IMG/VR virus record: IMGVR_UViG_3300045431_000194 | Location: 1-20,995 of that record | DNA: 20,995 nt | Reading direction: 5' to 3' (one strand) | Origin: a virus | In this document: piece by piece, positions 664 through 4,968 of the stretch | Position numbering within the stretch: position 1 is the stretch's first letter | How the letters are laid out: each line of letters opens with the position of its first letter | Notes under the pieces: model-generated | The model's input: the letters and a program-made list of their open reading frames with translations, nothing else | The model's database searches: none | What the model was told of the DNA's origin: nothing | Program-made: the position numbers and the translations under genes

Positions 664-1281
664 TTACTTCGTGACGCGGAGGTACACCTTGTCCGTGCCG
701 CCCACCAGCGTCCCCTCCCCCACCTGGGCGTTCGTGGCGGGGTCGAACAGGCGCACCGTGCGGTCCGTCCGGGTGTCCGGGGTGTGGGCAGGCTGGGGCA
801 CCAGCAGTTCGTTCACGCGGCGCAGGTAGGCGTCCCAGGGCCACGTCGGGCCGGGGCAGTTCGCGCGTGCCGCGCGGCCCGGGTTCACCTCGTTGTGCCC
901 GATGACGTGCACGCGGTCCGCTGGGATGCTGTAGCGCCGGCAGATGTCCGCCACGAGTCGAGCGCTGGCTTCCAGCTGGGCCGCGCTGGGTGTCCACGGT
1001 CCCCGGCTGGGCCGCCCTTCGTGTTCGATGCCGATGCTGCGCTCGTTCATCTCCCACTGTCCGGCGTGCCAGGCGGTGTCTGCTTCCGGCACGCTCTGCC
1101 CGACCCGTCCGTCGGTGGCGACGGTGTAGTGGGCGCTCGTGTTGCACTGCGGATTCTGGAACCAGTTGAGCGTCCCAGCGTACGTACCGTCCGCCACGTG
1201 GATCACCACGCGATCGGGCCGCACGGAGCGGCCCTTGGTGAAGTTCCCCGGGTGCGCCGGGCGCTGTTCGATGGTCGTCAT
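664..1281 (-). CDS. Endolysin: N-acetylmuramoyl-L-alanine amidase (Amidase_2/PGRP family)
   Basis: A 205-residue enzyme that should cleave the amide bond between N-acetylmuramic acid and L-alanine in peptidoglycan to release progeny. The start at 1281 (MTTIEQ) is set by AAGGGGGAAGG just upstream and by a 4-base ATGA overlap with the preceding membrane-protein gene; the frame is open further upstream, but that is the shadow of the neighbouring gene. The zinc ligands of the family are visible: His28 (VVIHVADGT), His129 (VIGHNEVNPG) and Cys142 (NCPGPTW). SAHYTV (about 49-54) and IGIEHEG (83-89) are typical. Two residues before the ligand Cys, where T7 lysozyme has a catalytic Lys, there is Ala. 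A C-terminal tail of about 35 residues could be a small wall-binding element. There is no signal peptide, so it would depend on a holin. Confidence 0.93.
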   Translation of the reverse strand: MTTIEQRPAHPGNFTKGRSVRPDRVVIHVADGTYAGTLNWFQNPQCNTSAHYTVATDGRVGQSVPEADTAWHAGQWEMNERSIGIEHEGRPSRGPWTPSAAQLEASARLVADICRRYSIPADRVHVIGHNEVNPGRAARANCPGPTWPWDAYLRRVNELLVPQPAHTPDTRTDRTVRLFDPATNAQVGEGTLVGGTDKVYLRVTK

Positions 1282-1802
1282 CCTTCCCCCTTCAGGCGCG
1301 CGAGTTCGGCCTCGGCGCGCTCGGCGCGATCTCGGTAGCTCTGCATCTGCTGCCACACGGTCGGGCGGATGCTCAGACGGAACAGCAGCAGCAGCAGGCC
1401 CGCCTGGGCCACGAGGAACGACAGGGTGCACGGCGCACCCGTGTACACGTTCCGGCTGTAGTTCATCAGCAGCCCGGTGGCGACCATCAGCCACGCGCCC
1501 CGCTGCGCCAGTGGTGCCTCCCGCACATGCCAGAACGTGTACCCCACCAGGATCACGACCGCCCAGCGCCCAGCAGCGAGCAGCGCGCCCGACAGGCTCC
1601 CGTTCAAATCCGCGATCCACGTGTCCGGGCCGATCTGCGTATCCCCCAGATCCGCCAGGATGCCCGGCGCGAACAGCGCCAGCGCTGCCGTGATGAGCAG
1701 CGCGGCCAGCAGCAGCACGTCCAGGGGATGCCACGCCGGACCCCGGCGCAGGGCCGCGCGCTCCAGGCGGCGGGAGAAGTGCGGCGAGCTCTTGAACGTC
1801 AT
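1278..1802 (-). CDS. Four-helix membrane protein of the lysis cassette
   Basis: 174 residues. The start at 1802 (MTFKSS) is chosen because AAGGAGGA precedes it and ATGA overlaps the stop of the holin gene; the frame reads open further upstream without a better start. Four hydrophobic segments are visible at about 28-50, 72-92, 102-117 and 124-143. They are followed by a charged C-terminal helix (about 148-172, AERAEAELARL) that looks like a short cytoplasmic coiled coil. The N-terminus is basic. Between an apparent holin and the endolysin, the likely roles are a second holin, antiholin or accessory lysis protein. I cannot assign a named family, and the helix count is larger than in most classic holins. 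Confidence 0.82.
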   Translation of the reverse strand: MTFKSSPHFSRRLERAALRRGPAWHPLDVLLLAALLITAALALFAPGILADLGDTQIGPDTWIADLNGSLSGALLAAGRWAVVILVGYTFWHVREAPLAQRGAWLMVATGLLMNYSRNVYTGAPCTLSFLVAQAGLLLLLFRLSIRPTVWQQMQSYRDRAERAEAELARLKGEG

Positions 1803-2149
1803 GGGGTGTCCTCCTTGCGGGTCAACTGGTACTGCCCGCGGGCGATGGCGGAGACGAAATCCCACGTTCCAGGTCCGATGGACCCGTAGAACATGGCGAG
1901 CCCCACGGCCGCCTTGATCGGCAGGGGCTTCACGGTGTCCTGCAGCAGCAGCAGGGCCAGCGCGGCGAGCGACCCGTAGATCACGTCCGCCGCGCCTTCC
2001 CCGATGGTCGTCAGGGGTTTACTCTCCCGTTGCTGCTCGGCGCGCTCGCGGGCGACGCGGGCGATGGACACGCAGAGGCTCATGACGAGGCTCGCGCCGA
2101 GCATCACGAGCGTCCGCAGGCTGATGAGCTCCTGCAGTTCAGGGGTCAC
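1799..2149 (-). CDS. Holin-like membrane protein
   Basis: 116 residues from GTG 2149, placed by GGAGGTGA upstream and a GTGA overlap with the stop of the preceding gene at 2146. Three hydrophobic segments are visible at about 13-34, 53-70 and 77-93. A charged loop (about 35-47, RERAEQQRESK) separates the first two, and the C-terminus is charged. The GSIGPGTW motif at the end of the third segment recalls three-helix phage holins of the LydA/holin III kind, though I would not name the family firmly. It should form membrane lesions that let the amidase reach the wall. It sits directly upstream of a second membrane protein and the endolysin, with translational coupling throughout. Confidence 0.8.
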   Translation of the reverse strand: MTPELQELISLRTLVMLGASLVMSLCVSIARVARERAEQQRESKPLTTIGEGAADVIYGSLAALALLLLQDTVKPLPIKAAVGLAMFYGSIGPGTWDFVSAIARGQYQLTRKEDTP

Positions 2150-2490
2150 GGTCTCACCTCCGGGATGCGGTAGGCGCGTCCGCTGGCGCTGATCCACTCC
2201 GCCCACCACCAGGGCCAGCTGACGCGGGTGAGGGTCTGCCCGGGCCGGATGGTGTAGGCCCCGGGTGGGTTGTCGGGCAGGCTGCCGCCGAGGCGACTGG
2301 CGAGCCGGACGCGGGCGTACCCGCCGGGCGGGCAGCCGGGCGCGGTCGTGATGGTCAGGGTGCGGCCCAGGCCCTCACGGTTCGGGACGCTGAGCGCCTG
2401 CACGCGGCAGAGCGTGGCGGGTGGAGGCGTGGCGGACGAGAGGAGCGGGAGCGCGGCCAGCAGCAGCGCCCCCAGGAGACAGCGAGTCAG
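2146..2490 (-). CDS. Small secreted protein of unknown function, apparent CTG start
   Basis: The frame contains a GTG at 2403, but it has no good ribosome binding site. Upstream it stays open to a TGA at 2497-2499. The first possible start after that stop is CTG at 2490, lying 9 bases after a perfect GGAGG that is part of GGAGGTGATC. Starting there adds 29 residues that read as a textbook Sec signal peptide: MTRC, then LLGALLLAALPLL, then SSA as a likely cleavage site, then TPPPATLC. The mature part of about 94 residues has two cysteines (about positions 28 and 53, perhaps a disulfide), a PGGYARVRLASR segment and a Trp-rich WPWWWAEW. I do not recognise the family. It is the first gene of the lysis cassette and overlaps the holin gene by four bases (GTGA). 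A spanin-like, inhibitory or exclusion role is possible but unproven. Confidence 0.65.
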   Translation of the reverse strand: MTRCLLGALLLAALPLLSSATPPPATLCRVQALSVPNREGLGRTLTITTAPGCPPGGYARVRLASRLGGSLPDNPPGAYTIRPGQTLTRVSWPWWWAEWISASGRAYRIPEVRP

Positions 2491-2524
2491 GGTCGATCAC
2501 CTCCACAGGTGCCCCAGCAATGTC

Positions 2525-2590: not shown

Positions 2591-3409
2591 TTAGCTGAAC
2601 TTACCGTTAAACGCCGCCCAGTCCGCTGCGACCACCTGTGCCCCGGTGCGCCCGCTGGCGGTCAGGTTTTCCGGCAGGGCGCGGTAGTACACATAGCCTG
2701 CGGTCGTGCTGCCGCCGCCGTTGCCGACGCGGCGGTCCCCCAGTGCGATGCTGTACGTGCTGGGGTTGAGTTTCGCGCCGGGGAACGTGCTGGCCGCGAT
2801 CTGCGCGCCGTCCAGGTACAGCGCGTAGGAGCCGGTGCCAGCGCTGAAGGTCACGCTGAACCCGATCTGATGCACGCCCGTGGTGATGACGTTCGGCCCG
2901 CTGAGCGTGGCGTACCGGATGGTGGCGCCGTCCGCGTCGAGCATCATGATGTCCAGCCGGGGTTTCCCGTCCGCGCCGATGCTGAGCAGAAACTGGTTAT
3001 CCACCGCCGCGCTGGTGCTCTGCGCGCGCCCCGCAATCGGCGTGAGGGCAGTCGGCACACTCGGGATTTTGACCCACGCACTCACCACAACACCGGGGCT
3101 GCCCGTGCTGAGGTCCGGTGCGCCCAGGTCAATGCTGGTCGCCGCCACGCCGGGCCGCACGAACCCGCCCTGCGCCTGCCACGTCCACGTGGTTGGGATG
3201 GTCGCACTCGCGCCGCCCCGCACGAGGTTCAGCCACGAGTTTGCCCCCGATGCGGGCGCAGCCTGGGACGGCCAGCTTTTCGGGTTTTTGGCGTCCCACA
3301 CGCCGATTGCCCCCGCGCCCGTTGCCGAAATCACAGGATCGTATTGCACCTGCGGAATGGTGTTCGGGAGAGTGATGCCGTCAACGTTAATGATTGCGCT
3401 GTTTGCCAT
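2591..3409 (-). CDS. Tail fibre/appendage protein with LamG-like (concanavalin A-like) domain
   Basis: 272 residues. The start at 3409 (MANSAI) is preferred over an in-frame codon three residues upstream because it follows the previous stop by two bases and has GGGGGTGGT ahead. From about residue 75 to 255 the protein is beta-rich, with the pattern of a LamG-like jelly roll: VVSAWVKIPS, FSVTFSAGTGSYALYLDG and SIALGDRR. The end (AQVVAADWAAFNGKFS) resembles the tail of many phage LamG fibre proteins. Such domains bind glycans or adhesins on the host surface. The N-terminus has no obvious membrane segment. It follows the SGNH fibre gene with a two-base gap, suggesting that both proteins belong to the same adhesion apparatus. 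Confidence 0.75.
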   Translation of the reverse strand: MANSAIINVDGITLPNTIPQVQYDPVISATGAGAIGVWDAKNPKSWPSQAAPASGANSWLNLVRGGASATIPTTWTWQAQGGFVRPGVAATSIDLGAPDLSTGSPGVVVSAWVKIPSVPTALTPIAGRAQSTSAAVDNQFLLSIGADGKPRLDIMMLDADGATIRYATLSGPNVITTGVHQIGFSVTFSAGTGSYALYLDGAQIAASTFPGAKLNPSTYSIALGDRRVGNGGGSTTAGYVYYRALPENLTASGRTGAQVVAADWAAFNGKFS

Positions 3410-3411
3410 GA

Positions 3412-4968
3412 TTACCACCCCCGCGCAGTCAGCGCGTCACGAATATGCCCAGCCACGAGTGCGTACCCTGCCGAGTTGAGATGGATGTCATCCACCCGGT
3501 ACGCGGCGTCTACCACGTCGGTAAGCGGGTCTTTTGGCAGGAGTTTCTGGATGTCCACCACGTTGTTACTCAGGCGCATCATGTTGCGGTTGATGGTCAT
3601 CATGGTCTGGTAATCCGTGTTTGGGGCGTCGTTTGCCCTGCGCCCTGGGTAGTTCCCGTTCAGCATGGTCAGGATCAGGTACCGCGTTTTCATGGCCTCC
3701 AGCGTGCGGATGATTGCCAGGATGTCGCGCTGGATGTTGGCATCCTCGGCGTAGTTGTTGTTCCCAATCCAGATGATGGCAACCCGCTCCTTCAGCGCAC
3801 TGGTGTCCGGGATGATCTGCACGCGGGCGGGCACCGTCACGGCGCTGCCTGCTGTCGCCCTCGTGAACGTGTATGCGCCTGCGAACACGCCTGTTCCTGC
3901 GCCGCGCGTCAGGGTGCCGCGCACGCCGTACAGCGTCACGGCCATGCTCGCGCCTGCGCCTGTGCGGAGTAGGTCAACGTCATACACGGTTACGCCGACA
4001 CTCCCGCTAGCCGGGATGGTGTTGCCCGCCACGCTGAGGTACGTGGTGGACGCGCCGAACCGCGCGGCGATCTCGGTACTCGTCTGCCCGCCCAGCCCGT
4101 AATTCGCCACGTCCCGCCCGGTCAGCCCAGCCAGTGCCGTGGTGTACGGTGTTTGCCCCACCCCGTGCGTGAGGCTATCCCCGATACCCACGAGGTCCGG
4201 CCCGCTGACCGCCTGCACGCCGTCAATGCGGTTCCGGCTGGCGGCGTAGGTGATGCCCTGCACGCTGTTCGGGCTGACAATTCCAGCCGGAGCGACGAGC
4301 CGCCCGTCCGTTGCCAGGGCCAGGGCCACGCGCCCCCCAGTGTCTGCCAGGATGGGCACGGCCTCCACGCCTGAGACGTAGCCCCGCTGGCTGCTGTCCA
4401 CAGCCAGCCCACTGGTCGAGAGGGTGGTGATCGTTGCAGCAGCCAGAGTCAGAGCTTTTATCACAGCGAGATTATCGGTCACTAACCCGCCGTCCAGATG
4501 CCACTTTGCGGCAGTGTCCATCCACATCATCGGGCGGTCATCCTGCCCGAGCCACGCAAACGCGGCCTGGACGCCATTGATGTAGGTGCCAGCGGGGAGC
4601 ACGGCCGGGCGCAGCGGAGTAAGCTGCGTGAGTTTCGCCGCGACCTGTTGATCATTGGCCTGTTGCCGCTGGTCGTTCGCCGCCTGTTGCTGGGCAATAT
4701 CGGCCAGTGCGGTGTCCACCTCGGCGCGGCCCCAGTCGACCTTCGTGAGGGTGTAGTTGCTGAGCGTCCCAGGTGTGCCGTACCCGGGCTCGCCGTCCAC
4801 GCGGTAGGTGACCCGCTGGTCCCGCGCGGTGACGAGGGTGCCCACGACGGTATGGCCGGGGTAGTAGGTGCGCAGCCAGTCCAGCATGGCCGGGATGTCG
4901 GCGTACAGGGCCACGCTGGGCGATTTGCGGTCAACAGGCACGACGCCTGCGGGGGGACTCCATGCCAT
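3412..4968 (-). CDS. Tail fibre/receptor-binding protein with SGNH (GDSL) hydrolase domain
   Basis: 518 residues from ATG 4968, one base after the preceding stop, with GGGAG upstream. Residues 1-90 form a virion-attachment region. Residues 90-112 are a Gln/Asn/Ala-rich coiled-coil-like stretch (QQQAANDQRQQANDQQ). Residues about 125-235 are a linker or neck region. The C-terminal half is an SGNH hydrolase. Block I is GIGDSLTHG with the nucleophile Ser265, block II is NYGLGGQTS (289-297), block III is WIGNNNY (400-406), and block V is DDIHLNSAGY with Asp493 and His496. A beta-rich insert of about 75 residues (311-385) separates blocks II and III and may bind carbohydrate. The enzyme probably deacetylates surface polysaccharide during adsorption. 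The catalytic residues are all present. Confidence 0.87.
   Translation of the reverse strand: MAWSPPAGVVPVDRKSPSVALYADIPAMLDWLRTYYPGHTVVGTLVTARDQRVTYRVDGEPGYGTPGTLSNYTLTKVDWGRAEVDTALADIAQQQAANDQRQQANDQQVAAKLTQLTPLRPAVLPAGTYINGVQAAFAWLGQDDRPMMWMDTAAKWHLDGGLVTDNLAVIKALTLAAATITTLSTSGLAVDSSQRGYVSGVEAVPILADTGGRVALALATDGRLVAPAGIVSPNSVQGITYAASRNRIDGVQAVSGPDLVGIGDSLTHGVGQTPYTTALAGLTGRDVANYGLGGQTSTEIAARFGASTTYLSVAGNTIPASGSVGVTVYDVDLLRTGAGASMAVTLYGVRGTLTRGAGTGVFAGAYTFTRATAGSAVTVPARVQIIPDTSALKERVAIIWIGNNNYAEDANIQRDILAIIRTLEAMKTRYLILTMLNGNYPGRRANDAPNTDYQTMMTINRNMMRLSNNVVDIQKLLPKDPLTDVVDAAYRVDDIHLNSAGYALVAGHIRDALTARGW

Follow-up and report, generated by a model that had tools for sequence, protein, structure and literature searches.

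A probable CTG-initiated gene for an exported protein in a conserved phage lysis module

Where does the gene that precedes the putative holin of this phage begin? The window, by which we mean the whole 20,995-base stretch of virus record IMGVR_UViG_3300045431_000194, carries tailed-phage genes on its minus strand. A standard open reading frame call starts one gene at GTG 2403, and the earlier note had argued that this choice cuts off a signal peptide encoded from CTG 2490. Its frame and coordinates held up: on the minus strand, TGA 2499-2497 is followed in frame by TCG ACC CTG (2490) ACT CGC TGT CTC CTG GGG GCG CTG, and no ATG, GTG or TTG lies in frame between that stop and GTG 2403. Read from CTG 2490, with the initial residue taken as Met, the product has 114 residues, MTRCLLGALLLAALPLLSSATPPPATLCRVQALSVPNREGLGRTLTITTAPGCPPGGYARVRLASRLGGSLPDNPPGAYTIRPGQTLTRVSWPWWWAEWISASGRAYRIPEVRP. 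The features concerned are these:

2146 to 2490, minus strand: secreted-protein gene of 114 codons plus stop, with proposed start CTG 2490, stop TGA 2148-2146 and known homologues
2488 to 2490, minus strand: CTG, the proposed initiation codon and the first near-cognate codon of the frame, with the GGAGG spacing of the protease gene
2401 to 2403, minus strand: GTG chosen by the standard call, which codes for Val30 within the conserved core, after C28, and has no Shine-Dalgarno sequence
2495 to 2504, minus strand: Shine-Dalgarno sequence GGAGGTGATC, a ten-base match to the 16S tail that includes the frame-closing TGA 2499-2497
2431 to 2490, minus strand: predicted signal peptide, residues 1-20, with a likely signal-peptidase-I site after SSA and counterparts in all homologues
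2149 to 2430, minus strand: mature domain of 94 residues, predicted all-beta, with invariant C28 (codon 2409-2407) and C53 (codon 2334-2332)

Signal peptides were judged by inspecting for a basic n-region, a hydrophobic core and small residues at positions -3 and -1. The N terminus encoded from CTG 2490 has all of these in a Sec-type layout (MTR / CLLGALLLAALPLL / SSA^T; full signal MTRCLLGALLLAALPLLSSA^T), so that export and processing by signal peptidase I are predicted. Its hydrophobicity is rare. Among the 26,325 stretches of 29 open codons that the window offers across all frames, 25 (about 0.1%) match its best 14-residue Kyte-Doolittle mean of 2.59; when the same bases were shuffled without creating stops, 1 of 17,150 sequences did so. 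These values, together with similarly built N termini in six of six homologues, agree with the proposal that a protein started at CTG 2490 would be a Sec substrate.

The homologues bear most directly on the choice of start. Six were found: two in IMG/VR phages (L004 and L005) and four in Deinococcus plasmid or prophage loci (L011 to L014). The start codon is ATG in L004, L005, L011 (D. radiodurans) and L013 and GTG in L012 (D. gobiensis) and L014. The earlier note had proposed examining homologues beside holins, and had counted the finding of homologues that lack the signal sequence as evidence against its reading; none lacked it, and in all six the signal peptide is encoded from ATG or GTG. 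Both C28 and C53 are invariant across the family. At the sequence level, the homologues confirm the predicted exported form as the real one. Between L004 and L005 the gene differs by 40 synonymous changes and only 7 changed residues; hence the protein is under purifying selection.

Two members of the family serve as reference points. WP_034349856.1 (D. radiodurans DRR11 plasmid 3) and WP_014686815.1 (D. gobiensis plasmid P2) are respectively 61% and 43% identical to the window protein over the mature part. Like it, they have a signal peptide and the two conserved cysteines, and they are followed by a pair of membrane proteins and an endolysin. They differ from it in their starts, which are ATG and GTG respectively where the window has CTG, and in the endolysin, annotated beside both as a family 19 glycoside hydrolase where the window has an amidase. 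Neither query matched Deinococcus chromosomes in the genome collection, and no homologue was present among 50,697 records of isolated phages. The cassette's relatives come from Deinococcus plasmid or prophage regions and from two IMG/VR contigs; the host of the window phage is therefore most likely Deinococcus.

Could translation nevertheless begin at GTG 2403, giving an 85-residue cytoplasmic protein? This is the first canonical start of the frame. However, a start at residue 30 would discard both the conserved C28 and the signal peptide common to all homologues, and it would leave the signal-like stretch and the ten-base Shine-Dalgarno sequence unexplained. The duplex with the 16S tail is also +0.2 kcal/mol at GTG 2403, compared with -20.1 kcal/mol over ten bases at CTG 2490. 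We regard initiation at GTG 2403 as extremely unlikely. Two other candidates were rejected: GTG 2500 lies inside the Shine-Dalgarno sequence, in a different frame that stops after 41 codons, and the further in-frame CTGs (2475, 2466 and on) would lose the basic n-region and are distant from the Shine-Dalgarno sequence.

The Shine-Dalgarno sequence that favors CTG 2490 is exceptional. A duplex of -20.1 kcal/mol was reached by 7 of 13,982 sampled 22-nt stretches, and it ranks second strongest among twelve starts of this phage that were examined; the sites of the ATG- and GTG-started homologues are weaker, between -3.0 and -12.1 kcal/mol. The window has five copies of GGAGGTGA, all of them on the minus strand and each with its first G 12-17 nt ahead of a start: those of the protease (16701), tape measure (10920), tail protein (6906) and holin-like (2149) genes, and CTG 2490. 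Apart from the copy at CTG 2490, then, all four stand before gene starts of the ordinary kind. The distance from GGAGG to CTG 2490 is 9 nt, as at the protease gene. By itself the pattern of GGAGG with a CTG 5-10 nt after it is weak evidence, since it occurs 8 times on the two strands of the window. A gene initiated at CTG is expected to have its CTG behind a Shine-Dalgarno sequence and no canonical start that serves the conserved protein, and this is the arrangement found here. The pairing of a strong Shine-Dalgarno sequence with a weak codon looks like compensation.

In the leader, two segments (2545-2538 and 2518-2511) form an inverted repeat, and a CACCT/AGGTG hairpin covers the Shine-Dalgarno sequence. 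A regulatory RNA structure was rejected: the leader folds no better than shuffled sequences (z +0.5 to +1.4). A search for a consensus promoter upstream of the secreted-protein gene found none.

Because ATG or GTG starts the gene in every one of the six homologues, the CTG is private to one metagenome-derived record, and when IMG/VR was scanned with any base allowed in the first position of the start codon, no second copy of the gene was found. Perhaps, then, codon 2490 is truly ATG or GTG, and CTG arose as an error in sequencing or assembly, or belongs to a minority variant? The exported protein would still be real and its start ordinary. CTG is one base from either codon, and a single change would turn CTGAC into ATGAC or GTGAC, with which several genes of the phage open. 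On the other side, the gene shows no trace of further errors, assembled contigs seldom carry consensus errors, and the unusually strong Shine-Dalgarno sequence fits a weak codon. A base-call error in the single metagenome record is the main open risk to the CTG start, but we consider this explanation unlikely.

The private CTG would also fit a naturally arisen mutation that lowers expression almost to silence, making the window copy a decaying member of a functional family. However, the 114-codon frame is intact, the conserved residues are retained and the stop-start overlap with the holin-like gene is preserved. Third-position GC also remains high, at 0.86 in the disputed 2490-2404 segment and 0.94 in the gene body, against 0.76 in the 100 nt upstream. 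Decay is thus a highly improbable account.

We conclude that 2490-2146 (minus strand) is probably a real phage gene for an exported protein, with initiation at CTG the likely reading of its start. The initiator tRNA would begin at the near-cognate CTG 2490 because the extended, near-perfect Shine-Dalgarno sequence would hold the ribosome there and offset the weak codon. The product would then pass through Sec and be cleaved after residue 20. Within the 94-residue beta domain, C28 and C53 would probably form one disulfide, and the mature domain may act in the envelope or outside it.

How unusual would such a start be? A passage in PMC5960689, citing Baudet et al. 2010, states that rpsL of D. 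deserti starts with CTG; CTG starts are therefore known in the genus associated with this phage family, which counts further against a base-call error. That gene is cellular and its start is reported to have been shown by proteomics, whereas the start of the window gene is read from sequence. The tape-measure gene of mycobacteriophage Corndog likewise has a true beginning without ATG, GTG or TTG where its relatives have ATG (PMC4351075). That case concerns another gene in another host, the suspected codon is different (perhaps ACG), and peptide evidence exists for it (PMC4351075). Against a CTG start, E. coli ribosome complexes on CUG are less stable than those on AUG, GUG or UUG (PMC11497404). 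Taken together, the two precedents and the weak binding of CUG make a CTG start plausible and unusual, with no new principle required. On this analysis, such a start in the window gene is unusual but not unprecedented.

The secreted-protein gene heads a group of minus-strand genes, which continues as follows:

1799 to 2149, minus strand: holin-like membrane protein 1, whose GTG start overlaps the TGA of the secreted-protein gene (GTGA 2149-2146)
1278 to 1802, minus strand: membrane protein 2, 49% identical to its D. radiodurans counterpart
664 to 1281, minus strand: endolysin, an N-acetylmuramoyl-L-alanine amidase (Amidase_2), with start ATG 1281 (MTTIEQRP)

Given the overlap of its stop with the holin-like start, the secreted-protein gene is probably translationally coupled to its neighbor. 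Membrane protein 1 is 54-62% identical to its counterparts in L004, L005 and D. radiodurans. The gene order is conserved: the exported gene comes first, then the two membrane proteins, then the endolysin, and all six homologues likewise stand ahead of such a pair and an endolysin. The membrane-protein pair with an endolysin directly downstream has the form of a holin-endolysin module, in which holin function is putative. Of the lysis cassette and holin described earlier, the cassette stands on its conserved order and its endolysin, while the holin is identified by position and hydropathy only: membrane protein 1 belongs to no Pfam or PHROG family, and the neighboring membrane proteins have no Pfam match above cut-off.

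The enzyme itself varies. Where the window has Amidase_2, L011, L012 and L013 have annotated family 19 glycoside hydrolases (L011:9129-9956, L012:5284-6060, L013:5168-5845); L014 has a weak family-19 match, and the L004 protein has no similarity to the amidase. We infer from these differences that the exported gene stays with the membrane pair while the enzyme is exchanged. L004 and L005 are 84-96% identical across the exported gene and both membrane genes and fall to background level from the endolysin (about 5144 on), a sharp mosaic boundary.

What might the mature domain be? The earlier note had likened it to no known family, and our searches bear this out: Pfam, PHROGs, NCBIfam and PDB sequences gave no family match above cut-off or at E <= 0.001. 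An AlphaFold2 model built from three sequences is all-beta, with moderate confidence (pLDDT 70, pTM 0.62). A structure search with this model returned no match at E <= 0.001; the Foldseek matches to Ig-like and similar domains all had E > 0.04 and were not counted as evidence of fold identity.

Because o- and u-spanins are small exported lysis-module proteins, in phages of outer-membrane hosts (PMC6139136), they resemble the window protein. Spanin lipoproteins were recognized by a lipobox, [LVI][ASTVI][GAS]C at the signal end (PMC6139136). The window protein and its six homologues have none and are predicted instead to form a compact beta domain, and an o- or u-spanin identity was rejected. 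No lipobox protein was found in the cassette within the window's reach. Small lipoprotein genes with a lipobox (LASC and LGSC) do occur a few genes past the endolysin at L005:6556-6903 and L013:6268-6636; these are o-spanin candidates in Deinococcus phages, and the window stops before the matching place.

Gene order and predicted export suggest that the protein is an accessory of the lysis module that acts in the envelope, a role to which we give a little less than an even chance. The main functional rival, a role in exclusion or in modifying the surface, is possible but clearly less likely. More speculative still, CTG and the very strong Shine-Dalgarno sequence might form a selected throttle, supplying a low dose of a new-family exported lysis accessory that takes the place of a spanin in opening or conditioning the layered envelope of Deinococcus; we think this improbable.

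In Deinococcus phages and prophages the family stands at the head of the lysis module, and the databases searched give it no functional annotation. It is a specific candidate for phage action on a layered envelope, and its D. radiodurans copy, M7777_RS15940 in a prophage region, is amenable to genetics. Gene callers restricted to ATG, GTG and TTG would render the exported window protein as a truncated cytoplasmic one. The window gene is also a clean test case for CTG initiation in a genus with reported starts of this kind.

Upstream of the secreted-protein gene, window positions 2591-3418 (minus strand) encode a Concanavalin A-like (Laminin_G_3) protein related to PHROG 19357, a family with unknown function. 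A terminator-like hairpin at 2738-2765 (plus strand) within this lectin-like gene is at chance level (1 found, 2 expected). The gene lies between that of the exported protein and one at 3412-4968 (minus strand) for a tail-fibre-like protein with a GDSL-type lipase/acylhydrolase domain (Pfam PF13472, E 3.5e-11).
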